Shown here in pieces: positions 44-39,444 of a stretch of 39,444 nt of DNA. The notes beneath the pieces are model-generated. The model searched no databases. It had not been told where the DNA came from and was given only the letters and a program-made list of their open reading frames with translations. The stretch's first letter is position 1, and every line of letters begins with the position of its first letter. The position numbers and the translations under genes were made by a program. This stretch comes from Herpetosiphonaceae bacterium (GTDB lineage: Bacteria > Chloroflexota > Chloroflexia > Chloroflexales > Kallotenuaceae): assembly GCA_036374795.1 (NCBI GenBank), contig DASUTC010000001.1, positions 1 to 39,444 of the forward strand, written 5' to 3'.

Positions 44-85
44 GTTCTCGCCCTTTGTTCTTTGTTCTTTATGCTCCGTTAGTTC
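44..85. repeat. degenerate heptad repeat just after the NRPS gene
   Basis: About six 7-base units follow each other, for example GTTCTCG, CCCTTTG, TTCTTTG, TTCTTTA. Read on the minus strand they are of the AAAGAACAAAGAAC kind. The tract begins two bases beyond the stop codon of the minus-strand NRPS gene, so it lies in its 3' untranslated region. Related tracts occur elsewhere in the window. The period was read by eye. Confidence 0.6.
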
Positions 86-87
86 CC

Positions 88-3000
88 CTACGCGACCGGC
101 TCGACGGCCCGCGCGGAGAGCACCTGGCTCTGGAAATGCAGCACGCCGCGCTCGATGAAGTAGGTCAATGCGGCCCGGATCTGCTCGGCGCTGAACGTCG
201 GGCAGACAATCGAGCTATCGGCAAGCCCCTCGATCGTATTCCGGCAATCGTAGTGCGGCATTGCGAGGAGATCGACCCAGTCTTCTTCGGTGGGCATCGC
301 CGAGAGGAAGGAGAGCAGCGGATACAGCACGTTGTCGTGCTCGCTCTGGGCGTTCGCCAGCAGCGCGGCGTACCACTGGGCGTAGGGCAGCACACGGACC
401 GGGAAGCCCGCCCGCTTCACCGCCTGCGCCAGCTCACGAAACTGGATCGGCTGCGGGTTGAGCAGGTGGAAGACCTGGCCGATCCGATCGCGCTGGAGCG
501 ACAGGTGGACGATCGCCTGCGCCACATAATCGACGGGCGCGAGATTCTCCTGCATGTCGATGTCGGGCGCGCTGCCGAGCTGCACCCAGCCGGTGATCAG
601 CCGCGCAATAAAGTCGTCGGGATTGCTCGCGCCGGTGACGCTGTGGCCGGCAATCCGCCCTGGCCGGTAGATCGACACGGGCAGGCCGCGCTCCTTAGCC
701 GCCATCACCAGATGCTCCGCCACCCACTTGGTCTGCACATAGCCGCTGTCGATGCTATCGATCGGGCCGAGCATCTCCTGCTCGTGGACCCGCCCGTCGG
801 CGCTGCGGGCGGCGGTGCTGGCGACGGCGACGGTGGAGACGTAGTGCAGCGGCTTGACGCGGCCCTGACACGCCAGGCGCAGCACTTCCTGCGTGCCCAG
901 CACGTTTGCGGCCTTGAGCGCGGCGTAGGGATAGATAAAGCTGACCATCGCGCCGCTGTGGTACACGCCGTCGATCGTATCGGCCAGCGTGGCAAAGGCA
1001 TCCTCGGAGAGGCCCAGGCGCGGCTGGCCGAGATCGCCGGGCACCGCAACGATTCGCGCGCTGAGCTGCTCATCCCACAGCCCATATGCTTCCAGCGTGG
1101 CGCGCAGCCGATCGCTGCCCTGGTCGCTGTGCTTCGCGCGGACCAAGCAGTACACATCGGCGCTCGTCTTGCGCAGCAGCTCGTGGAGCATAAAGGCTCC
1201 CAGGAAGCCGGTCGCGCCCGTCAGGAAGAGCGCCTTCGGCTCCGCAACAAACCAGTCATCGCTGGCCGTGGGGCGGATCGACAGGTCGAGCGCGGTATCG
1301 GCGATCAGATCGACCAGCAGATCAAGCGACTCATCGCTCTCGAAGCTTGGCTGCTGCACTGCCTGCACCGCCTGCGCGCATCCGGCGACGGTCGGCGCGG
1401 CGAAGAGTTCGCGCAGCGGCAGGTCGATGCCGAAGCTCGCCTTGATCTGCGCCGTGAGGCGGATCGCCAGCAGCGAGTGGCCGCCCAGCGCGAAGAAATC
1501 CTCATCGATGCCGACCTGCTCGACGCCGAACAGCTCGGCCCACAGACCGGCCAGCTGCGCCTCAAGCGCGGTGCGCGGCGCCGCCAGCGTCCGCTGCTCT
1601 GCCTGCTGCGCCCGAACCGGAGCCGGCAGCGCCAGGCGATTGACCTTGCTGTTGGGCGTGAGCGGCAGCGCGTCGAGCACCACGATCGCGCTCGGCACCA
1701 TGTAGGCGGGCAGACGCTCCTGCAAATACGCCTTAAGGCCAGGAGTCAGGGCGTCATGCTCTGTATTCTCGACCACATACGCCACAATGCGCTTATCGCC
1801 GGGAGTATCTTCGCGGACAATCACCACGCACTCGCGCACGCCGGGATGCTGCTGCATCAGCGTTTCGATCTCGCCCAGCTCGATGCGGAAGCCGCGCACC
1901 TTGACCTGGTGGTCGATGCGGCCCATGAAGGCGATGTCGCCGTTGGGCAGATAGCGCGCCAGATCGCCGGTCTTGTACAGCCGCGCGCCGGGCATGCCCT
2001 GAGGGCACCCGCTGAACGGATTGGGCACGAACTTCTCAGCCGTCAGTTCGGGCCGGTTGAGGTAGCCGCGCGCCAGCGCATCGCCGCCGATATACAGCTC
2101 ACCGGCAACGCCGACCGGCACCGGGCGGAGGTGCTGATCGAGCACGAACATCTGCGCGTTGTGGATCGGGCGGCCAATCGGCGGCAGCGCGGCCCACCTG
2201 GTGGGGCAGCCTACCAGATCATGAGCGGTGACGACATGCGTCTCGGACGGGCCGTAGTGGTTGTGCAGCGTACAGCGGCCAAGGCGCTGGATCAGCCGCA
2301 CGATCGCCGGAGTCATCTGGAGCTGCTCGCCTGCGGTGATGATCTCGCGCAGACGGCTGGGCACGTGCGCCTGCTGCTCGGCGGCCTCGGCCAGAAATTG
2401 CAGCGCGACGAACGGCAGGAAGATTCGCTCGACGCCTTCGCGCTCCAGCACGTGCAACAACTGCGCGCTGTCCTGGCGTACCTCGGACGAGATCAGCACC
2501 AGCGTGCCGCCGGAGCACCACGTCGAGAAAATCTCCTGAAACGACACGTCGAAGCTCAGCGAGGCGAATTGCAGCGTCACCGTCTGGCTGCCTGGCGTCC
2601 ACTGAGAAAGTTGCCATGTCAACAAATTGATTAAAGGACGAAGGCCCATCGCCACGCCCTTCGGGCGGCCCGTCGAGCCGGAGGTGTAGATCAGGTAGGC
2701 CAGATGATCACCTGTCGCCGCATTGGCGGTCGGCCAGGTCGGCTCGCAGGCGATACGCTCCCAATCGCTATCCAGGCAGAGCACCTGAGCGCTGTGCGCG
2801 GGCAGCATCTCGACGAGATGCCGCTGGGTCAGCAGTACAGGAGCCTGAGCATCGGCCAGCATAAACTGCAAGCGCTCCTGGGGATAGGCCGGATCGAGCG
2901 GCAGATAGACACCGCCCGCCTTGAGCACCGCCAGCACGCCGACGACCATCTCGATCGAGCGCTCGATGCAGATGCCGACGGGCACGTCCGGCCCGATGCC

Positions 3001-6000
3001 GAGGCGCTGGAGATGATGCGCAAGCTGGTTCGCCCGCCGATCGAGCTCCTGGTAGGTCAGTTGCTGATCCTCGAAGACCACCGCCACCGCGTTGGGCGTG
3101 CGCGCGACCTGCGCCTCGACCATCTCATGCAGCCGCCGATCTTCGGCATAGGCTGTGCGCGTGGCATTCCACTCGACGACGATGCGCTGCTGCTCGGTCG
3201 TCGGCAGCAGCGGCAGCAGCGCCACCCGCTGGTCGGGATTCTCGACCACGCTCTCCAGCAAGGTCTGGAGGTGGCCCAGCATCCGCGCGATCGTCGCGGC
3301 ATCGAAGAGGTCGGTGTTGTACTCGAAGGAGGTGAGCAGACCGCCGGGAACCTGGATCATTTCGAGGAAAAGATCGAACTGCGCGGTGACGCTGGTATGA
3401 GGCAGGGCTTCGACCGTCAGCCCGTCGAGCTGGACCGGCTGGCGCGGCGCGTTCTGAAGGGCGAACATCACCTGGAAGAGCGGATTACGGCTGGGATCGC
3501 GCTCCGGGTGCGCCAGCTCCACCACCTGCTCGAACGGCAAATCCTGATGCATATACGCGCCCAGCGCCATCTCGCGCACGCGGCCCAGCAGCTCGCGGAA
3601 GCTCGGATGGCCGCTCAGATCGGCGCGCAGTGCCAGCGTGTTGATGAAGAAGCCGATCAGGTCCTCGAACTCGCGGCGGCGGCGATTGGCGATCGGCGTG
3701 CCGACCACAAAATCGGTCTGGCCGCTGTAGCGCTGCAATAGTACCTGAAAGGCCGCCAGTAGGGTCATGAACAGCGTCGTGCCCTCGCGCTGGCTCAGCT
3801 CGGCGAGCGCCTGGGTGAGCGCCTGCGGCAGCACGATCGACTCGCGCGCGCCGCAGAACGTCTGCGACAGCGGACGGGGTCGGTCGGTCGGCAGGTGCAG
3901 CACCGCGCCACAGCCGGAGAGCTGCCTGGTCCAGTAGGCCGTCTGCTCGGCCAGCACCGCGCCTTGCAGCCACTTATGCTGCCACAGCGCCGCGTCGGGA
4001 TACTGGAGCGTCAGCTCGCTCAAGAGCGTTGGCTGATCGGTCAGGGCCGCCTTGTAGCAGGCCGCCAGCTCGCGCCAGAAGATCGAGAGCGACCAGTCAT
4101 CGATCACGATATGGTGCAGCGTCAGCAGCAGGACATGCTCTTCGGCGCTGAGACGCAGCAGCGTCGTGCGCAGCAGGGGACCGGCAGCCAGATCGAAGGG
4201 CCGCTGCGCCTCAAGCAGCGCAAGCTGCTGCACGCCCAGTGCCTGCTCGGCGGGATCGAGCGCCTCAAGATCGACGATCGGCAGGGAAATACGCACCTCT
4301 GGCAGGACCACCTGAACCGGCTGCTCGTCGCAGAGCCGGAAGACCGTCCGCAGCGCTTCATGACGCTGCACAATCGCGTTGCAGCTCCGCTCCAGCGCGT
4401 CGACATCCAGCGCGCCGATCAGGCGCAGCGCCTGCGGCACCAGATAGGCCGGATTACCGGGGGCGAAGCGCTCGATCATCCACAGGCGCTGCTGCGCGAA
4501 CGAGAGCGGCAGATTGCCCGATGCAGGCCGCCGGAGCTCGATCTGGGCTGTCGGCAGATCGCCTGCCAGGTCGAGGTCACAGGAGAACGTCCGACGATCA
4601 AGATACATCTGCGCCAGATTGTCGGCGATCGTCGGGCCGCCGAGCTGCTCGCTGATCGCCGCGACAACCTCGGCGACCGTCGCGTGGACGAAGAGCGTCT
4701 GCATCGACACATCGGCCTGAAACGCCTCGCGCAGCCGCGTCAGCACCTGGCCGGCCAGCAGCGAGTGGCCGCCCAGCGCGAAGAAGTTATCGTGGATGCC
4801 GATCGACGTGACACCCAGCACATCGGCCCAGATCTCGGCGACGGCGGCTTCGGCAGGCGTGCGCGGGCTAACCAGCGCATCCTCGACCACACGCGACAGC
4901 TCCGGCGCGGGCAGGGCCTTGCGATCGACCTTGCCGTTGGGCGTCAGCGGCAGCGCATCGAGCATCACGAACGCGCTCGGCACCATGTACTCCGGCAGGC
5001 GCTCCGCCAGGAACTGCCGCAGCGCCGGTATGCCGTGCTCTGCTCCTTGCTCGTTGTTCGTCACGACATACGCGACCAGGCGTTTATTGCCGGGGGTATC
5101 CTCGCGCGCCACTACGGTACACTCGCGCACGCTCCGATGCTGTTGCAGCACTGCCGCGATCTCGCAGGGCTCGATGCGGAAGCCTCGGACTTTGACCTGA
5201 TCGTCGGCGCGACCGATAAAATCGATATTGCCGTCAGGCAGATAGCGCGCCAGATCGCCGGTCTTGTACAGCCGCGCGCCGGGATCACTGCTGAACGGAT
5301 TGGGCACGAACTTTTCCGCCGTCAGATCTGGACGATTGCGGTAGCCATGCGCCAGGCCGATACCGCCGACATACAGCTCGCCGAGCTCGCCTGCCGGCAC
5401 CGGCTGCATCTGCTCGTCCAGAATATAGCACTGGGTGTTGTAGATCTCACGACCGATATGCGGCTGCGCGCCATCGGCTGCACAGCGCGCGGTCGTCGCC
5501 CAGATCGTCGTCTCGGTGGGGCCGTAGGCATTGAAGAACATGCGCCCGCATACCCAGCGTGCCACCAGCGCGCTTGAGCACGCCTCGCCTGCGACAATTA
5601 CCGTCTTCAGCGCGGGCAGCTCGGCGGGCGGCAGCGCGGCCAGCGAGGACGGCGGGATCGTAATATGAGTAATCGCCTGTTCGCGTAGCAGACGAGCCAG
5701 ATCGGGGCCTGGCAGGAGCATGTCGCGCGGGGCAAGATACAGCGTTGCGCCCACGCCTAAGGCCATCACAATTTCAAAGATAGAAGCATCAAAACTGATC
5801 GAGGCAAATTGGAGAATTCGGCTCTGGGGTCGCACATCAAAGAGATCAACCTGCGTATCAACCACATTGCCCACGCCGCGATGGGCAACCAGCACACCCT
5901 TTGGCTTGCCGGTCGAGCCCGACGTATAGATCACGTACGCCAGATTCTCTGAGCCGGTCATGCAGGCTGGCGTAGCCGCACGCTCATGTGCGAGCGTGGA

Positions 6001-6498
6001 CCAGTCCGCGTCGAGCGTGATGATCTGGACGCGCGTAACGTCAACCTCTGGCAGTTGATCGCGCAGCCGCGCCTGGGTGAGCAGCACCGGCGCCTGCGTA
6101 TCGACCAACATATACTGGAGCCGATCCTGCGGATACGCCGGATCAAGAGGGACGTAGACACCGCCGGCCTTGAGGATACCAAGTAACGCAACAATCAGCT
6201 CAAGCGAGCGCTCCATGCAAACAGCAACACAAACCTCTGGCCCGACACCGATCCTGCGCAGCATGTGCGCGAGCTGATTCGCGCGGCGATCAAGCTCGCC
6301 GTAGGTCAGGGATTGCTGCCCGAAAACCAGGGCGACGCTATTGGGATGCTGGGCTACCTGAACCTCAAACAGATGATGCATGCACGTGTGTTGGCCCGAT
6401 GTTTGGACCAATGACCATGCTCCGGGCATGGGGTTCTGCTCCATGGCAGTAAGGGGGGTAAGAAGCGCGGCCTGGCGCTCCTCGACATGTGTAAACAC
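88..6498 (-). CDS. two-module NRPS (A-PCP-C-A-PCP-R), dipeptide aldehyde synthetase
   Basis: A 2136-residue cytoplasmic peptide synthetase. Order: adenylation 1 (about 40-530; YTSGSTGKPKG, NAYGPTE), carrier 1 (FFALGGHSL, phosphopantetheine Ser579), condensation (662-1105; HHIVIDDWS at 795, Asp where the motif usually has Gly), adenylation 2 (1120-1627), carrier 2 (Ser1675) and an NAD(P)-dependent thioester reductase (from 1754; GATGFLG, YVQTK). No condensation domain precedes adenylation 1, so it is an initiating and self-contained enzyme. Pocket residues aligned to GrsA read D-A-F-T-I-A-A-I-W-K (aromatic, Phe-like) and D-V-Q-F-I-A-H-V-V-K (proline signature). There is no epimerase and no thioesterase; reductive release should give an aldehyde. 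The layout matches aureusimine synthetase (ATCATR). The start is GTG with AAGAGGAG seven bases upstream. Adenylation 2 has NSK in place of the usual NGK in core A10. Specificities are inferred. Confidence 0.95.
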   Translation of the reverse strand: MFTHVEERQAALLTPLTAMEQNPMPGAWSLVQTSGQHTCMHHLFEVQVAQHPNSVALVFGQQSLTYGELDRRANQLAHMLRRIGVGPEVCVAVCMERSLELIVALLGILKAGGVYVPLDPAYPQDRLQYMLVDTQAPVLLTQARLRDQLPEVDVTRVQIITLDADWSTLAHERAATPACMTGSENLAYVIYTSGSTGKPKGVLVAHRGVGNVVDTQVDLFDVRPQSRILQFASISFDASIFEIVMALGVGATLYLAPRDMLLPGPDLARLLREQAITHITIPPSSLAALPPAELPALKTVIVAGEACSSALVARWVCGRMFFNAYGPTETTIWATTARCAADGAQPHIGREIYNTQCYILDEQMQPVPAGELGELYVGGIGLAHGYRNRPDLTAEKFVPNPFSSDPGARLYKTGDLARYLPDGNIDFIGRADDQVKVRGFRIEPCEIAAVLQQHRSVRECTVVAREDTPGNKRLVAYVVTNNEQGAEHGIPALRQFLAERLPEYMVPSAFVMLDALPLTPNGKVDRKALPAPELSRVVEDALVSPRTPAEAAVAEIWADVLGVTSIGIHDNFFALGGHSLLAGQVLTRLREAFQADVSMQTLFVHATVAEVVAAISEQLGGPTIADNLAQMYLDRRTFSCDLDLAGDLPTAQIELRRPASGNLPLSFAQQRLWMIERFAPGNPAYLVPQALRLIGALDVDALERSCNAIVQRHEALRTVFRLCDEQPVQVVLPEVRISLPIVDLEALDPAEQALGVQQLALLEAQRPFDLAAGPLLRTTLLRLSAEEHVLLLTLHHIVIDDWSLSIFWRELAACYKAALTDQPTLLSELTLQYPDAALWQHKWLQGAVLAEQTAYWTRQLSGCGAVLHLPTDRPRPLSQTFCGARESIVLPQALTQALAELSQREGTTLFMTLLAAFQVLLQRYSGQTDFVVGTPIANRRRREFEDLIGFFINTLALRADLSGHPSFRELLGRVREMALGAYMHQDLPFEQVVELAHPERDPSRNPLFQVMFALQNAPRQPVQLDGLTVEALPHTSVTAQFDLFLEMIQVPGGLLTSFEYNTDLFDAATIARMLGHLQTLLESVVENPDQRVALLPLLPTTEQQRIVVEWNATRTAYAEDRRLHEMVEAQVARTPNAVAVVFEDQQLTYQELDRRANQLAHHLQRLGIGPDVPVGICIERSIEMVVGVLAVLKAGGVYLPLDPAYPQERLQFMLADAQAPVLLTQRHLVEMLPAHSAQVLCLDSDWERIACEPTWPTANAATGDHLAYLIYTSGSTGRPKGVAMGLRPLINLLTWQLSQWTPGSQTVTLQFASLSFDVSFQEIFSTWCSGGTLVLISSEVRQDSAQLLHVLEREGVERIFLPFVALQFLAEAAEQQAHVPSRLREIITAGEQLQMTPAIVRLIQRLGRCTLHNHYGPSETHVVTAHDLVGCPTRWAALPPIGRPIHNAQMFVLDQHLRPVPVGVAGELYIGGDALARGYLNRPELTAEKFVPNPFSGCPQGMPGARLYKTGDLARYLPNGDIAFMGRIDHQVKVRGFRIELGEIETLMQQHPGVRECVVIVREDTPGDKRIVAYVVENTEHDALTPGLKAYLQERLPAYMVPSAIVVLDALPLTPNSKVNRLALPAPVRAQQAEQRTLAAPRTALEAQLAGLWAELFGVEQVGIDEDFFALGGHSLLAIRLTAQIKASFGIDLPLRELFAAPTVAGCAQAVQAVQQPSFESDESLDLLVDLIADTALDLSIRPTASDDWFVAEPKALFLTGATGFLGAFMLHELLRKTSADVYCLVRAKHSDQGSDRLRATLEAYGLWDEQLSARIVAVPGDLGQPRLGLSEDAFATLADTIDGVYHSGAMVSFIYPYAALKAANVLGTQEVLRLACQGRVKPLHYVSTVAVASTAARSADGRVHEQEMLGPIDSIDSGYVQTKWVAEHLVMAAKERGLPVSIYRPGRIAGHSVTGASNPDDFIARLITGWVQLGSAPDIDMQENLAPVDYVAQAIVHLSLQRDRIGQVFHLLNPQPIQFRELAQAVKRAGFPVRVLPYAQWYAALLANAQSEHDNVLYPLLSFLSAMPTEEDWVDLLAMPHYDCRNTIEGLADSSIVCPTFSAEQIRAALTYFIERGVLHFQSQVLSARAVEPVA
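5035..5062. repeat. heptad repeat inside NRPS adenylation domain 1
   Basis: Four consecutive 7-base units (GTGCTCT, GCTCCTT, GCTCGTT, GTTCGTC) lie in the coding sequence. They encode part of the stretch around residues 478-490 (TNNEQGAEHG) in the loop between cores A8 and A9. The units belong to the same family as the intergenic tracts, and a longer version sits at the equivalent loop of the other NRPS at 39024-39072. Confidence 0.45.
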
Positions 6499-15356: not shown

Positions 15357-17054
15357 CTAGCGATACACCCGCACAAAGCCGCTGAGCGTATTGCCGTTCG
15401 GCCAACTGTTGTAGCACGCGCCGCTGCTATCTTTCCATGATTTATTGGTCGCCGTGTACACAATCGAGCCGACCGAGCCGCGCCCATCCCACGAGCGGCG
15501 AATGCCGTCGGAGTTGAAGTAGGGCGTGTAGTAGCTCTCCTGGCCCGTGCAATCAAGACCCGTGAAGTGGCTGATGTAGGCGGCCTGCACCGGTGTAAAC
15601 TGCGTATCGCGGTAGATGCGGACAAAGCCGCTGAGCGTGTTGCCGTTCGGCCAGTCGTTGCGGCACACGCCGCTGCTATCCTTCCACGAGCGATTCGTCA
15701 CGGTGCGCAGTGTATTGCCGGCAAAGCCCTGGCCGTTCCACGAGCGGCGAATGCCGTCGGAGTTGAAGTAGGGCGTGTAGTAGTGCTCTTCGCCGGTGCA
15801 ATCGAGGCCCGTGAAGTGGCTGATGTAGGCGTTCTGGATCAGCAAGCACGACGATTCGGGACAGCCCGTGGTCGGCGGCGAGCCAAACGGCGGAACGTAG
15901 AGCAGGCGGTTGACGGTGCCCGATGGGTTGCCGCTGATCACGTTGGGCGTCGCGTTGGTGGACAGCCAATTGCTGACCGTCGCGCTGGCCGCGTCGCCGT
16001 AGACGCTCTTGTAGAGCGCGGCCACGCCCGCTACGTGCGGCGTTGCCATCGACGTGCCGCTGATCGTGTGGGTGCCGCTGTTGAGCCAGGCCGATTTAAT
16101 GGCCGAGCCAGGCGCGTATATGTCCACACACGAGCCGACGTCGCTATACACCGCCTTGGCGTCGTTCTTCTCCGATGCCGCGACGGTGTAGGCTTCCGGC
16201 GTGCCGGAGGGCGATCCATTACACGCATTGCTGCTATAGTTGTTGCCAGCGGCCACCGCCACGAAGACGCCGGAGTTCGACAGGTTCGCCACGGCGGTGT
16301 TGACCGAGGCATTGTAGCCGCCGCCCAGCGACATATTCGCCACCGCTGGCTTCTGCGCGTTGGCCCGCACCCAGTCGACGCCCGCAATCACCCCCGACCA
16401 CGAGCCGGAGCCGCCACAGTCCAGCACGCGCACGCCGCGCAGGTTGACGCTCTTCGCCACGCCCCAGGTCGTGCCGCCAACGGTGCCCGCCACGTGCGTG
16501 CCGTGGCCGTTACAGTCGTTGCCGTTGCCGCCGAACGAATCGTAGACGTTCGCGCCGCGCCCACCGAAGTCGGGGTGGTTGGCCTGAATGCCGGTGTCGA
16601 TGATGTAGGCCGTCACGCCTGCGCCCGTCGCGGTGTAGGTGTAGGTCCGCGACAGCGGCAGATTGCGCTGGTCGATGCGGTCGAGGCCCCACGGATCGCC
16701 GTTGGCATCCATGTTCTGGGTCGTGTCGAGCGTCACGGCGGCATCGTGCTCGATGTAATCCACGTTGGGGTTATGCTGCAAGGCGTTGAGCTGTCCGGCG
16801 TTCAGCTCCGCCGCGAAGCCGGTGAGCGCCGAGGTGTAGAGATGCGTCGGCTGGACGCCGCTCAGCGCGGCTACGGAGCGCGGATTGCTGCCGTCTTTGA
16901 GCACGACGATATAGCGATTGGGCAGGGTTGGCCCCTGGGCAGGCAGGATCGGGCGAGCGGCTGCCGCGTGATCGGCGGCGAAGGCGTTGGGCATGCTCAG
17001 GCACGCGCCGAGAAGCGTCAGGCACAGCGCCAGACGTTGAAAAGACAAGTTCAT
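15357..17054 (-). CDS. secreted subtilase (S8, proteinase K-like) with two C-terminal repeats
   Basis: A 565-residue secreted serine protease precursor. Residues 1-26 form a signal peptide ending in AFA. An inhibitor I9 propeptide follows (about 46-108, [17 protein letters not shown]). The catalytic domain carries Asp153 (IIDTG), His184 (GHGTHVAG), the oxyanion Asn271 (AAGNN) and Ser335 (GTSMATPH). From 409 to the end there are two copies of an 83-residue unit ([48 protein letters not shown]), each with two Cys residues that could form a disulphide. I do not recognise the unit; binding to substrate or cell surface is a guess. The ATG at 17054 has GGAG nine bases upstream and begins directly with the signal peptide; the longer frame from 17081 adds a charged stretch. 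It is divergent from the GH-A-like gene. Confidence 0.95.
15360..15830 (-). repeat. two tandem 249-bp coding repeats in the subtilase
   Basis: The DNA encoding the two C-terminal units repeats with a period of 249 bases (15564 and 15813 both start the same 18-base segment coding for AYISHF). Large parts are near identical at DNA level, which suggests recent duplication or gene conversion. Confidence 0.85.
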
Positions 17055-17226
17055 CCGTCGTTTCTCCAAAGTGCTAGTCAATCGACCGACAGATTCATCG
17101 TAGTCCGCAGGTCGTCGTGGGGGGAGCGACGGTGGAGTATGCTATGCGGCTGCACCTCCTTGTGAGCAAGGCGATCGATCCGGCGGCGATCAGCAGAATC
17201 ACCGATGGTCTTTAGCCAGGATCGTT

Positions 17227-23771: not shown

Positions 23772-23817
23772 CATGGTACCCCGGCATGGGCGACCTCTGG
23801 GACCGGGATGAGGGCCT

Positions 23818-23873
23818 GGAACTTGAAACTTGGAACTCGAAACTTGGAACTCGAAACGAGAGAGAAGGAAGGT
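23818..23873. repeat. heptad repeat tract upstream of the MFS gene
   Basis: Eight 7-base units in a row, alternating GGAACTT / GAAACTT / GGAACTC / GAAACTT / GGAACTC and then drifting to GAGAGAA and GGAAGGT. The last unit provides the AAGGAAGG ribosome site of the MFS gene. A short related piece (GAACCAA, GAACCGG) is at 23712-23725. Confidence 0.75.
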
Positions 23874-26820: not shown

Positions 26821-26911
26821 GACGAAAGAACCAAGAACAAGGAACAAGGGAGCAACCCTGAGTCTGAACTTTGAGCCTTGAACTCGAAACCTTCAAACCT
26901 CAGAACTGGCA
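26821..26911. repeat. heptad repeat tract upstream of the CPA antiporter
   Basis: About 13 units with 7-base spacing: GACGAAA, GAACCAA, GAACAAG, GAACAAG, GGAGCAA, then more degenerate units (TCTGAAC, TTTGAGC, CTTGAAC, TCGAAAC, CTTCAAA). It fills most of the space between the two divergent antiporter genes, whose promoters must lie in or beside it. Confidence 0.7.
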
Positions 26912-34095: not shown

Positions 34096-34158
34096 ATGAA
34101 CACACAATGGTTCATGGGGCTGCCCGTGATCGAGCTTGGAGGCGTCGCGGCGCAATGA
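34096..34158 (+). CDS. possible 20-residue leader peptide overlapping the synthetase start
   Basis: A short frame starts at ATG 34096, three codons after a stop, and encodes MNTQWFMGLPVIE followed by a small-residue tail. Its stop TGA overlaps the synthetase ATG as ATGA (34155-34158). AGGA lies about 11 bases before its ATG, a mediocre site. Translational coupling is plausible, but a frame this short can arise by chance. Confidence 0.3.
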   Translation: MNTQWFMGLPVIELGGVAAQ

Positions 34159-37100
34159 GCACTTGCCTTTCTGATCTTCCGTTTGCATGCTCCACATTGG
34201 TCGATCTCCTACGCTGGAGAGCCGCTCATCAACCCGAACAGCAAGCCTATACATTCCTGACTGATGGAGACGGCGAGGCCGTTCGGCTGACATACGCGCA
34301 GCTCGATCAGCAGGCGCGTGCGATTGCGGCGCAGCTCCAAAGCGTGAGCGCGCCAGGCGACCGTGCGCTGCTGCTGTATCCGCCCGGCCTCGACTTTGTC
34401 GCCGCCTTCTTTGGCTGCCTCTACGCCGATGTGATCGCGGTGCCGGCCTATCCGCCGCATGGCGCGCGCATGGAGCGCACGCTGCCGCGCATCCGCTCGA
34501 TCGTTCATAACGCCCGGCCGCAGATCGCGCTGACCGTCGCGCCGATCATGACGCGAATCGCCCCCGCGCTGGCGCACGACCCCGACTTCCAGGCGCTACA
34601 ATGGGTGGCCTCCGACACGATCGCGCCCGAATCCGCCGCCGCATGGCGGCAGCCCGACATCACGAGCACGACCCTGGCGTTCTTGCAGTATACCTCCGGC
34701 TCGACCGCCGCGCCGAAGGGTGTGATGGTCAGCCACGGCAACCTGCTGCACAACGAGCGCATCATCAAGGCGGGCTTCGGGCACCACGGCGAGACACTGG
34801 TGGTTGGCTGGCTGCCGCTCTACCACGACATGGGCCTGATCGGCAACGTGCTCCATCCGCTGTACCTGGGACAGCCGTGCGTCCTGATGTCGCCGGTTGC
34901 GTTTCTGCAAAGCCCGTTCCGCTGGCTCCAGGCGATCTCACACTACAAGGCGACAACCAGCGGCGGGCCGAACTTTGCCTACGATCTGTGCGCGCGCAAG
35001 ATCACGCCGGAGCAGCGCGCGACGCTCGACCTGAGCCACTGGAAGGTGGCGTTCAACGGAGCCGAGCCGATCCGCGCCGAGACGATGGAGCGCTTTGCCG
35101 CGACCTTCGCCGAGTGCGGCTTCCGGCGCGAGGCATTCTATCCCTGCTACGGTCTGGCCGAGGCGACGCTCTTTGTCACGGGCGCATCATCCACAGAGCC
35201 GCCGGTCTTCCAAACGATCGACCTGACGGCGCTTGAGCGCGACCGCATCGTGACCGCCGTGCCCGACGCGCCCAACGCCCAGACGCTGGTGAGCAGCGGG
35301 CAGATCTGGCTCGACCAGACGCTGGCGATCGTCGAGCCGACCACGCGGCAGCGCTGCGCGCCCGATCAGGTTGGCGAGATCTGGGTGGCGGGGCCGAGCG
35401 TGGCGCAGGGCTACTGGAATCAGCCCGCCGAGACTGAATATACCTTCCGCGCCTACACCGCCGACACGGGGGAAGGCCCGTTCCTGCGCACCGGCGATCT
35501 CGGCTTTGTGCGCGACGGCGAGCTCTTCGTCACCGGACGGCTGAAAGACCTGATCATCATTCGCGGTCGCAACCACTATCCGCAGGACATCGAGCTGACC
35601 GTCGAGCGCAGCCACCCGGCGCTGCGTCCCGGCTGCGGCGCGGCCTTTGCGCTGAACAAAGACTGCGAGGAGCGCCTGGTCGTCGTTCAGGAGGTCGAGC
35701 GCGAGCATCGCAACACGCCGATCGACGAGATGGCGGCGGCGATTCGCAAGGCCGTGGCCGACGCGCACGAGCTACAAGTTTATGGCGTTGTGCTGCTGAA
35801 GCCCGGCGGCGTGCCCAAGACCTCTAGCGGCAAGATCCAGCGCAGCGCCGCACGCCAGGCGTTTCTGGCCGATCGTCTGGACACGATCGGCAGCAATATC
35901 TTGGAGGATACGGCTACCGAGCAGATCGGCGTGGAGCTGAGCCGCGCAAGCCTGCTGGCCGCAGAGCCAGCCGAGCGAGAGTCGCTGCTGCAAGCCTATC
36001 TGCGCTCCCAGGTGGCGCATGTGCTGGGCGTGAGCCTGGATCGCGTGGAGCCGCACCAGCCGACCAGCACGCTCGGCATCGACTCGCTGATGGCGGTCGA
36101 GCTTCAGCATACGATCGAGACGCAGCTTGAGGTCGTCGTGCCGATGGTTTCGTTCCTTGAGGAGCGCACGCTGGCGCAACTGGCGGCGGAGCTGCTCGCG
36201 CAGATCGACGCGCCGCAGGTGGAGATCGAGCTGGTCGCGGCAACCGACGAAGGAGCGGAGCAGCCGCTCTCGCACGGCCAGCGCGCGCTCTGGTTCCTGC
36301 ATCAGCTCGCGCCAAACAGCAGCGCCTACCATATCGCCAGCGCCGTCCGCATCCGCTCGGATCTGGACCTGAGCGCGCTGCGGCAGGCGTTCCAGACGTT
36401 GGTCGAGCGTCATCCCGCGCTGCGCACGACGTTCAGCGCGCGGCAAGGCGAGCCGTTCCAGCGCGTCCAGCCGCAGATGGAGCTGAGCTTCGGCGCGGCG
36501 GATGCCACGGGCTGGAGCGAGGCCGAGCTTGCGACGCGGCTGACACAGGAGACGCAGCGGCCCTTCGATCTTGAGCGCGGCCCGCTGCTGCGGATCGACG
36601 TATTTACGCGCGGCGCGCAGGAGCACGTGCTGCTGCTGGTCGTGCATCACATCGTCGCCGATCTGTGGTCGCTGGCGGTGCTGACGCACGAGCTGGGCCT
36701 GCTCTACCCGGCGATCAAGGAGAGCCGTCCGGTGGAGCTTGCCGCTCCTACGCTGCACTATACCGACTATGCGCGCTGGCAAAATACGCTGCTGGCCGGG
36801 CCTGAGGGCGAGCGCCTGGCACGCTACTGGCAGCAGCAGCTAGCGGATGCGCCCACGGTGCTCAACCTGCCGACCGATCACCCGCGACCGTCGGTGCAGA
36901 CGTACAACGGCGGCGTCCACAGCTTTACGCTCGATCCCGACGCGACGCGGCAGCTCAAGGCGGTAGCGCAGACGCACGGCACCACGCTCTTCACCACACT
37001 GCTGGCGGCGTTCCAGGTCTTGCTCTACCGCTACACCGGCCAGCCCGATCTGCTGGTCGGCTCGCCGACCGCTGGCCGCAGCCGCGCCGACTTCGCGAAT

Positions 37101-39444
37101 CTGGTTGGCTATCTGGTCAATCCGGTGGTGCTGCGCGCCAATCTGGCCGATCAGCCGAACTTCGCGGCGTTTCTCGCGCAGGTGCGGCAGACGGTGCTGG
37201 CGGCGTTCGCGCACCAGGCGTATCCATTCCCGACGCTGGTCGAGCGCTTGCAGCCGGAGCGCGATCCGAGCCGCTCGCCGCTGTTCCAGGTGATGTTCGT
37301 GCTGCAACAGGCGCAGCGCTACACCGACACCGACGTGACGGCGCTGGCGCTTGGCGATGGCGGCGCAACGCTCAACGTCGGCGGGCTCGAGCTTGAGTCG
37401 GTCGCGCTGGAGCAGCCCGTGGCGCAGTTCGACGTGACGCTGATGCTGGCGGAGACGGCGCGGGGCCTGGCTGGCGCGTGGCAGTACAACGCCGATCTTT
37501 TCGACGCGGCGACGATCGCGCGCATGGCGGGCCACTTCCAGACCTTGCTGGCAAGCATCGCGGCCAACCCGGAGCAGCCGATCGCCGAGCTGCCGCTGCT
37601 GACGGAGGCCGAGCGGCAGCGGATGTTGATCGACTGGAACCGCTCTGAGGCGGAGTATCCGCGCGACGCCGCCGTGCATACGCTGATCGAGGCCCAGGCC
37701 GCGCGCACGCCCGACGTACCCGCAATCGTCTTCGAGGGCGCGGCACTGACGTACGCCGAGCTGAACACGCGGGCGAATCAGCTCGCGCACCACCTGCGCG
37801 CGCAGGGCGTCGGTCCCGATGTGCTCGTCGCGCTGTGTGTCGAGCGCTCGCTGGAGATGATCGTCGGCATGCTGGCGATCCTCAAGGCCGGCGGCGCGTA
37901 TGTGCCCCTCGACCCGGCCTATCCTCAAGAGCGGCTTCAGTACATGTTGTCGCACAGCCGCGCGCCGGTGCTCCTGACCCAGGCCGCGCTGGTCGAGCGC
38001 CTGCCCGAACACACGGCGCAGGTGTTTTGCCTGGATGCCGACTGGCCGCTGCTGTCCGAGCAACCAACAGCGAATCCGGCGCGCGTGGTCTTGCCCGATC
38101 ACCTGGCCTACATCATTTTCACGTCAGGCTCGACCGGACGACCTAAGGGCGTGATGGTCCGGCAGCAGGGCCTGATCAATCTGGTCTATGGGCTGCGCGC
38201 CTATTTCGACGATCCGGCAGTGCAGACGACCGGGCTGATCACCTCGATCAGCTTCGACATTTCGGTCAACCAGATCTTCCCGACGCTGTTCTTCGGGCGG
38301 ACGCTGCATATCATCCCCGATCCGGTCAAGTTCAACAGCCGCGCGCTGCTGCGCTACCTGCACGAGCAGCAGGTGCATCTGCTCGACGCGGTGCCCTCCT
38401 ACATGCAGGCGGTGCTCAACGAAGTCGCGCCCTACCAGCCGCCGAACGCGCTACGCTACCTCGTCATCGGCGGCGAGAAGCTCGAACAGCGCTTGCTTCA
38501 GGCGGTCTTCGGCCAATTTGGGCCGCAGGTCGAAGTGGTCAACATCTACGGCCTGACCGAGATCAGCGACATCAATATTCTGGGTGTGCTGCGCGCCGAC
38601 GATCTTGGCAAACCGGTTACGGTGGGCACGCCGCTGCAGAACAACCGGATCTACATCCTCGACCAGCACCACCAGCCGCAGGCGATCGGGATTGCAGGCG
38701 AGGTCTGCGTCTCCGGCGAAAGCCTCTCACGGGGCTACCTCTTCCGCCCGGAGCTGACCGCCGAGCGCTTCGTGCCGTGTCCCTTCGAGGACGGCCAGCT
38801 CATGGTGCGCACCGGCGACCTTGGCCGCTGGCGCGCCGATGGGACGGTCGAGATCTTGGGCCGCATCGATCATCAGGTCAAGATCCGGGGCTTCCGCATC
38901 GAGACGGGCGAGATCGAGGCCGTGCTGGCGAAACATCCGCAGGTCAACGAGTGCGTGGTGGTAGCGCGCGAGGATACGCCGCCCGCAGGCGGGCACCCGG
39001 AGAAGCGCTTGGTGGCGTACATCGAACCAAGAACCAAGAACAAAGAACTCGAAACTCCGAGCGCGGAACTCCGCGTCTACCTGGCCGAGCATCTGCCGGA
39101 CTACATGGTGCCGAGCGCGTTCGTCGTGCTGGACACACTGCCGAAGACGCCCAACGGCAAGATCGACCGCAAGGCCCTGCCCGCGCCGGATCTGCCCGCC
39201 GCGCTAGAAGATAGCTTTGTCGCGCCGCGCACGACCGAAGAGCAGATCATCGCCGGGATCTGGGCCGAAGTGCTTGGCCTGGAGCGGGTTGGAGTCTATG
39301 ATAACTTCTTCGAGCTCGGCGGTCACTCGCTGAAAGCAACCCAGGTCATGGCGCGCGTTCAGGATGTGTTCCGCGTCGAGCTTCCACTGCACACGCTCTT
39401 TGAAGAGCCTACCATCTCACGGCTAGCACAGGTCGTAGGACACG
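34155..39444 (+). CDS. lipopeptide synthetase, FAAL-ACP-C-A-PCP (partial, runs off the window)
   Basis: At least 1763 residues, open to the window end. A fatty acyl-AMP ligase (about 1-590; LQYTSGSTAAPKG near 178, GWLPLYHDMGLIG, RTGDLGFV, GRLKDLIIIRGRNHYPQDIE) activates a fatty acid and loads it on the acyl carrier (LGIDSL, Ser644). A condensation domain (from about 700; HHIVADLWS at 831, Leu for the usual Gly) joins it to the amino acid chosen by the adenylation domain (about 1172-1677; FTSGSTGRPKG near 1321, with YGLTE rather than YGPTE). The carrier FFELGGHSL has Ser1725. The pocket code reads roughly D-I-N-D-V-G-I-D-I-K and matches no signature I know. ATG 34155 has GGAGG 12 bases upstream; ATG 34107 is an in-frame alternative. 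It is the first gene of a lipopeptide pathway continuing to the right. Confidence 0.95.
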   Translation, partial: MSTCLSDLPFACSTLVDLLRWRAAHQPEQQAYTFLTDGDGEAVRLTYAQLDQQARAIAAQLQSVSAPGDRALLLYPPGLDFVAAFFGCLYADVIAVPAYPPHGARMERTLPRIRSIVHNARPQIALTVAPIMTRIAPALAHDPDFQALQWVASDTIAPESAAAWRQPDITSTTLAFLQYTSGSTAAPKGVMVSHGNLLHNERIIKAGFGHHGETLVVGWLPLYHDMGLIGNVLHPLYLGQPCVLMSPVAFLQSPFRWLQAISHYKATTSGGPNFAYDLCARKITPEQRATLDLSHWKVAFNGAEPIRAETMERFAATFAECGFRREAFYPCYGLAEATLFVTGASSTEPPVFQTIDLTALERDRIVTAVPDAPNAQTLVSSGQIWLDQTLAIVEPTTRQRCAPDQVGEIWVAGPSVAQGYWNQPAETEYTFRAYTADTGEGPFLRTGDLGFVRDGELFVTGRLKDLIIIRGRNHYPQDIELTVERSHPALRPGCGAAFALNKDCEERLVVVQEVEREHRNTPIDEMAAAIRKAVADAHELQVYGVVLLKPGGVPKTSSGKIQRSAARQAFLADRLDTIGSNILEDTATEQIGVELSRASLLAAEPAERESLLQAYLRSQVAHVLGVSLDRVEPHQPTSTLGIDSLMAVELQHTIETQLEVVVPMVSFLEERTLAQLAAELLAQIDAPQVEIELVAATDEGAEQPLSHGQRALWFLHQLAPNSSAYHIASAVRIRSDLDLSALRQAFQTLVERHPALRTTFSARQGEPFQRVQPQMELSFGAADATGWSEAELATRLTQETQRPFDLERGPLLRIDVFTRGAQEHVLLLVVHHIVADLWSLAVLTHELGLLYPAIKESRPVELAAPTLHYTDYARWQNTLLAGPEGERLARYWQQQLADAPTVLNLPTDHPRPSVQTYNGGVHSFTLDPDATRQLKAVAQTHGTTLFTTLLAAFQVLLYRYTGQPDLLVGSPTAGRSRADFANLVGYLVNPVVLRANLADQPNFAAFLAQVRQTVLAAFAHQAYPFPTLVERLQPERDPSRSPLFQVMFVLQQAQRYTDTDVTALALGDGGATLNVGGLELESVALEQPVAQFDVTLMLAETARGLAGAWQYNADLFDAATIARMAGHFQTLLASIAANPEQPIAELPLLTEAERQRMLIDWNRSEAEYPRDAAVHTLIEAQAARTPDVPAIVFEGAALTYAELNTRANQLAHHLRAQGVGPDVLVALCVERSLEMIVGMLAILKAGGAYVPLDPAYPQERLQYMLSHSRAPVLLTQAALVERLPEHTAQVFCLDADWPLLSEQPTANPARVVLPDHLAYIIFTSGSTGRPKGVMVRQQGLINLVYGLRAYFDDPAVQTTGLITSISFDISVNQIFPTLFFGRTLHIIPDPVKFNSRALLRYLHEQQVHLLDAVPSYMQAVLNEVAPYQPPNALRYLVIGGEKLEQRLLQAVFGQFGPQVEVVNIYGLTEISDINILGVLRADDLGKPVTVGTPLQNNRIYILDQHHQPQAIGIAGEVCVSGESLSRGYLFRPELTAERFVPCPFEDGQLMVRTGDLGRWRADGTVEILGRIDHQVKIRGFRIETGEIEAVLAKHPQVNECVVVAREDTPPAGGHPEKRLVAYIEPRTKNKELETPSAELRVYLAEHLPDYMVPSAFVVLDTLPKTPNGKIDRKALPAPDLPAALEDSFVAPRTTEEQIIAGIWAEVLGLERVGVYDNFFELGGHSLKATQVMARVQDVFRVELPLHTLFEEPTISRLAQVVGH
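39024..39072 (+). repeat. heptad repeat translated inside the lipopeptide synthetase
   Basis: Seven 7-base units in a row (GAACCAA, GAACCAA, GAACAAA, GAACTCG, AAACTCC, GAGCGCG, GAACTCC) lie in frame-neutral fashion in the adenylation domain. They encode about 16 residues (EPRTKNKELETPSAEL) from residue 1624, a charged loop between cores A8 and A9. Confidence 0.75.

Follow-up and report, generated by a model that had tools for sequence, protein, structure and literature searches.

How tandem repeats with a unit of 7 bases come to lie in frame inside a conserved enzyme domain is the question raised by the 39,444-nucleotide stretch of Herpetosiphonaceae DNA analysed here, which we call the window. 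It carries two NRPS genes, and in one of them the loop between cores A8 and A9 of an adenylation (A) domain is encoded by such repeats. The first-pass annotation had reported this tract, had likened it to a shorter one in the other NRPS, and had proposed that surface loops of megasynthases gather repeats and that recombination between tracts could shuffle modules. We examined these proposals in the window, in the genome that holds it (G000; 7.75 Mb in 373 contigs), in a sister-species genome of the same genus (G001), and in A domains of other taxa.

The repeat-filled loop of the window

The tract originally placed at 39024–39072 between A8 and A9 is real. TRF finds a 7-base array at 39024–39048, a heptad HMM calls the whole of 39019–39070 with a score of 17.8, and shuffling of the tract's own loop gives a p value of about 0.001 (Table 1). 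At its 3' end the tract merges into the conserved ELR of the next helix. Its host is an NRPS adenylation domain, with an AMP-binding fold and cores A3–A10, and the A-T unit of the window, as modelled with AlphaFold2 (mean pLDDT 87.5), has the typical NRPS A-domain fold. In this model, the tract-coded residues (about 474–491 of the modelled unit) are predicted to form the end of a strand and the following loop, with pLDDT blocks of 87 and then 67. The sole stretch predicted with a pLDDT below 50 lies in the neighbouring GC-rich insert PPAGGHP, whose 12-mer family (gcccgcaggcgggc) was found again in about a dozen other G000 loops. From the end of A8 to A9 the window loop measures 65 aa and holds no extra domain; lacking a folded catalytic domain between a8 and a9, it is not an interrupted A domain. 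Folded as a single strand, the tract does not form a single long hairpin, and Rfam gave no match within the window.

The parallel with the second NRPS held only in part. A tract translated as GAACAACGAGCAAGGAGCAGAG does lie in the equivalent loop, in A domain 1 (loop segment TNNEQGAEHGIPA at 5023–5061, minus strand), but the resemblance is marginal (shuffle p of 0.07), and the HMM gives no call in this loop, which is only 59 aa long.

Elsewhere in the window, a 249-base direct repeat, present in 1.8 copies at 81%, occupies 15373–15831 within an ORF at 15360–17081 on the minus strand. The thioester-reductase domain at the end of the second NRPS is of the NAD_binding_4 type; since the other NRPS starts with a fatty-acyl-AMP-ligase-like domain, the cluster may, judging from its domain order, produce a lipopeptide that is released in aldehyde or alcohol form.

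Table 1. Repeat tracts and NRPS features of the window.
Feature	Position	Strand	Remark
Heptad-family tract just beyond the 3' end of the second NRPS gene	45..80	-	
Second NRPS ORF: A-T-C-A-T-thioester reductase	88..6498	-	
GCPQGMPG insert ahead of A7, A domain 2 of second NRPS	1987..2010	-	member of second, GC-rich repeat family
Weak, degenerate heptad remnant, A8–A9 loop of A domain 1 of second NRPS	5035..5062	-	shuffle p 0.07
Heptad-family tract upstream of likely start of transporter-like gene	23815..23870	+	non-coding context
Heptad-family tract, intergenic	26825..26851	+	
NRPS ORF: fatty-acyl-AMP ligase-like, carrier, condensation, adenylation, carrier	34107..39443	+	extends beyond window end
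AMP-binding (A core) of tract-bearing A domain	37689..38741	+	
A8 motif GRIDHQVKIRGFRIETGEIE	38859..38918	+	
GC-rich insert PPAGGHP, inverted repeat gcccgcaggcgggc	38979..38999	+	in hairpin turn ahead of loop
LVAYI strand	39009..39023	+	5' border of repeat-filled stretch
Heptad tract GAACCAA GAACCAA GAACAAA GAACTCG AAACTCC GAGCGCG GAACTCC	39019..39070	+	codes A8–A9 loop EPRTKNKELETPSAE
A9 motif LPDYMVP	39093..39113	+	

Confinement of coding repeats to the A8–A9 loop

G000 contains 131 AMP-binding matches, about 127 of which were NRPS-type on inspection. The DNA around all of them was combined with control contigs into a sample of 1.56 Mb and scanned on both strands with the heptad HMM (unit RAACNNR). 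The tract model was made after the sequence had been seen and its units were fitted by eye, a bias mitigated by shuffled and other-taxon controls. As GAACCAAG is nearly unchanged when read backwards, a reversed-sequence control was dropped and Markov-resampled sequence was used instead. The sample yielded 151 tracts with a score of 1 or more, against 1 in the resampled sequence, and no call with a score of 4 or more was obtained in resampled copies of the whole sample.

Tract density, in tracts per 100 kb, was highest inside the loop window (134), followed by intergenic DNA (46), and fell to 4.7 where ORFs had no A domain and to 1.7 in A-domain ORFs beyond the loop window. Nine tracts in A-domain ORFs fell outside the loop window; read individually, they proved to be A8–A9 loops of truncated or unlisted A domains, so that 63 of the 63 heptad tracts in A-domain ORFs of the sample sit in the A8–A9 loop. 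Of the 41 tracts in other ORFs, most were accounted for by additional truncated A domains, wrongly placed ORF starts or antisense ORFs. Coding tracts in many unrelated protein genes were therefore not found in the 1.56 Mb sample; they are essentially restricted to A8–A9 loops, about 60% of which carry heptads in G000. In 47 of the 48 loops with called tracts, the tract begins 3' of the LVAYV strand, and most tracts stop at the start of the LRxxL helix, so that both borders of the filling, at the strand and at the ELR helix, are sharp. The sister genome G001 shows the same confinement (32 of 33 coding tracts in A8–A9 loops). The pattern is thus far larger than had been claimed, and the proposal that this surface loop gathers repeats is borne out: tracts are not spread over coding regions, and the loops of the relative are filled with repeats rather than with conserved protein sequence.

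The filled loops are also long. Measured from the end of A8 to A9, the median is 72 aa in G000 (maximum 109) and 78.5 aa in G001 (with L089, a named relative described below, included), compared with 55 aa (5–95% range, 55–60) for 127 loops of other taxa, drawn from 79 named NRPS loci. Heptad scores of 12 or more were reached by 60/113 loops in G000, 22/38 in G001 and 6/127 in other taxa, where null expectations were 0.3, 0.3 and 5.3, respectively; no excess over the null was found in the 127 loops of other taxa. A pattern of LVAYVV codons followed by heptads occurred 29 times in G000 and 34 times in G001, and was absent from the 399 other genomes sampled from the phylum as well as from two more genomes of the same genus, with few A domains, that were searched apart. 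Heptads as such are common in some relatives having few A domains. Five genomes of the same order but another family (G006, G009, G015, G018 and G021) use a heptad particular to them, GAACATA (GAACATAGAACATA...), which makes a third dialect of this unit type, and LVAYVV-heptad loops were not found in them.

Our search of the openly accessible literature, with subscription papers outside its scope, found nothing relevant on heptanucleotide repeats in NRPS genes. Repeats lying in frame within protein genes have been described as Rickettsia palindromic elements (RPE) and their Wolbachia counterparts (PMC2229807). As with these, one repeat family in G000 is present both between genes and in frame within conserved protein genes, with little apparent harm. 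RPE, however, are palindromes of 105–146 bp that have terminal inverted repeats and are dispersed among many unrelated genes (PMC2229807), whereas the heptads are 7-base tandem units, not palindromes of about 100–150 bp, come in species dialects and, rather than entering many unrelated genes, fill the same loop of a single domain family in scores of modules. Heptanucleotide tandem repeats are known as STRR in cyanobacteria and as TAACTGA in Beggiatoaceae (PMC4679880). Like them, the G000 repeats are tandem 7-base units present genome-wide in many copies, with a lineage-specific consensus and a mostly intergenic location. Read forward, the known units contain stops (LITDN-stop), and they seldom occur within ORFs (PMC4679880); unlike them, many G000 units are stop-free in all frames and have massively entered NRPS genes.

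Reading frames, dialects and inserted domains

Units in the loops occupy all three codon phases (57/38/51), and loop tracts run in the same (53) or the opposite (13) orientation, with 0 in-frame stops. The encoded peptides are consequently wholly different (EQRTKNK, ELGTWNL, CSLFSVLCS), from which it follows that loop filling is a DNA-level uptake of repeats rather than a charged linker selected at the protein level. In only 100 kb of sampled intergenic DNA, 23% of loop-interior 12-mers were present, compared with 5.7% of random coding 12-mers and 2% for shuffled loops. The frames do stay open despite the period of 7, as first observed, and the cause is simple. Several units (GAACAAA, GAACTTG, AAACTCG and their reverse complements) are stop-free in every frame, and selection acts against stop-making units in frame. 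All three frames are open in 37 of 66 loop tracts versus 12 of 47 intergenic tracts, and TCG is favoured in loops where TTG, which creates TGA when followed by A, is favoured in intergenic tracts.

Each genome has its own, sharply different dialect. In G001, GAACCTAGAACCYAG (GAACCTAG units) was counted 332 times, against 0 times in G000, whereas AAACTYGRAACTYGRAACT (AAACTTG/TCG units) occurs 179 times in G000 and 0 times in G001; loop units match the dialect of their own genome. Best-match modules of the two genomes, where orthology means best hits at 75–82% nucleotide identity between fragmented genomes, have unrelated repeat-filled loops. The same holds for L089 (from Chloroflexota bacterium CP_BM_RX_R8_21), the named relative closest to the window locus, which is about 81% identical over 4.4 kb and aligns on both sides of the loop, while its loop reads EQRTKEQRTKEQSTTDSPSPAAAGEG... 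These comparisons indicate that the A8–A9 loops were refilled after the lineages parted.

Other repeats also occur as filling. Loops of L089 and G001 hold a CCCTCGCC...GGGAGAGGG element (SPSPAAAGEG), which belongs to another repeat family. A second, GC-rich family provides PEGTRPG-, GYPQGG- or CPQG-like inserts ahead of A7 in 22/100 A domains, as against 0/26 in other taxa; it is partly palindromic and lies in frame in two other turns, before A7 (including CPQGAPG) and before the LVAYV strand (PPAGGHP, GALGA).

The A8–A9 loop is the usual site at which methyltransferase and other domains are inserted (PMC11355689). Such interrupted A domains share with the heptad filling the site of insertion, and among the 13 G000 A domains with a methyltransferase-type insert, a heptad tract sits at the N-side junction in 6 and at the C-side junction in 0; the tract thus lies beside the inserted domain without flanking it, and long repeats on both sides of inserted methyltransferases were not found in these domains. 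The two differ in what is inserted, a folded catalytic domain in the one case and repeat DNA coding for 0–54 residues in the other. Four G000 loops (L041, L043, L050 and L066) contain a shorter insert of 340–354 aa with a CVFDVGANIGLF motif, FkbM-methyltransferase-like, and other inserts in G000 A8–A9 loops are of the N-methyltransferase type (GWNSSYTG motif). In two further cases (G000:C170:22559-24688 and G000:C319:10163-12289) the A domain is split mid-core by a luciferase-like monooxygenase-type domain, at a site other than a8/a9.

Origin and significance of the loop filling

Several readings of these data were weighed. An artefact of assembly, codon bias or the period-7 search can practically be dismissed, even though the unit model was fitted by eye and G000 is fragmented, since open frames of thousands of codons traverse the tracts, an independent genome shows the same pattern, the resampled sequence gave a single call against the 151 real ones, and the 127 loops of other taxa show no excess. 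Common descent, in which one ancestral A domain took up repeats once and module duplication spread them, with only divergence since, is disfavoured and in our view improbable. The NRPS repertoire has clearly expanded and a few loops are near-identical between modules, but at 85% similarity 101 of the 113 loops count as distinct, loops are unrelated across the two genomes even where the module cores are most similar, the loop dialect tracks the genome and not the module, and short unfilled loops (55–60 aa) persist among paralogs. The encoded peptides are mostly charged, and some loops with inverted tracts fold well as single strands (z of -4 to -5.4), as would be expected if a charged peptide or a hairpin of paired tracts were selected, for example for docking or translation pausing. 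Such a functional element is nevertheless very unlikely: mixed frames and orientations change the peptide completely (EQRTKNK versus CSLFSVLCS), both orientations occur in only 5 of the 48 tract-bearing loops, and 21 G000 loops are short and without repeats. Well-folding inverted pairs are found in some loops and intergenic sites; the majority do not fold well.

The remaining proposal, that tracts are kept because recombination there shuffles modules or brings in methyltransferase domains, was assessed by neighbour concordance on a codon alignment of 123 A domains. Concordance was low at A3 and over A7–A8 plus the loop, with a coherent specificity core between; no dip or breakpoint peak specific to the tract was found among the 123 domains, and the dip at A3, where there is no tract, was equally deep. 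Raw breakpoints clustered near the conserved A8, away from the tract. This peak was considered as a hotspot and rejected, being judged a product of A7–A8 conservation and loop noise; as conservation alone can reproduce it, shuffling of modules by tracts is not demonstrated. In published cases, NRPS recombination mostly exchanges Acore while Asub is retained, on the other side of the A8–A9 loop (PMC8097286), and the G000 pattern, with its low concordance at A3 and near A8, agrees with it. That exchange concerns the specificity-determining core, and a role of loop filling as its guide is not demonstrated. The breakpoint check was not wholly negative, in that one pair (C165/C363, loci L040/L078) breaks just upstream of the loop. 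Together with the broad dip and the six N-side junction tracts this speaks for a recombination handle, but the lack of a loop-specific peak, the constant absence of tracts from C-side junctions of inserted domains and the published exchange on the other side of the loop make it improbable.

We therefore favour, as the probable explanation, that the A8–A9 loop is a permissive, exposed loop that keeps in-frame copies of the genome's own short repeats. The filling is, in all likelihood, nearly neutral for the enzyme rather than a module-shuffling device. The source of the repeats would be either the intergenic pool or another loop, with copying by microhomology or short-patch gene conversion followed by replication slippage, while purifying selection would purge frame-breaking inserts and those that land in any structured part. 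In several module pairs the loops are 92–98% identical amid flanks of only about 65–80% identity (L061/L075; L036, two modules of one gene; L048), which fits short-patch gene conversion or parallel copying, and an all-pairs patch scan gave a suggestive 14 pairs, 4 of them in the loop. The anchor may be GAACT at the conserved Glu-Leu codons of the helix: these read GAACTN at the helix start in 31 of 36 heptad loops, GAACTC and GAACTG together account for about 7% of the EL pairs across A-domain ORFs, and the repeat DNA runs seamlessly into the host codons, a correlation that suggests such microhomology. A shallow search for a target duplication or a mobilising enzyme found none.

Interdomain linkers hold no tract, and tolerance alone does not account for that. 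There is some chance, albeit a small one, that the loop is an active landing site, where copying seeded by GAACT at Glu-Leu keeps rewriting the loop of every module in the species dialect and may open it to domain insertion. If this were true, genome repeats would be linked to the evolution of interrupted A domains.

Loop filling by the genome's own repeats is a clear bacterial case of intergenic repeats turned into protein. It amounts to a natural experiment in which one loop of one enzyme family has been filled in frame roughly a hundred times, with a sister species as a replicate, and comparison of modules allows the rate and route of repeat movement to be tested. NRPS engineering already uses the A8–A9 loop, and the filling marks exactly where the adenylation domain tolerates foreign sequence, which is useful for such engineering.
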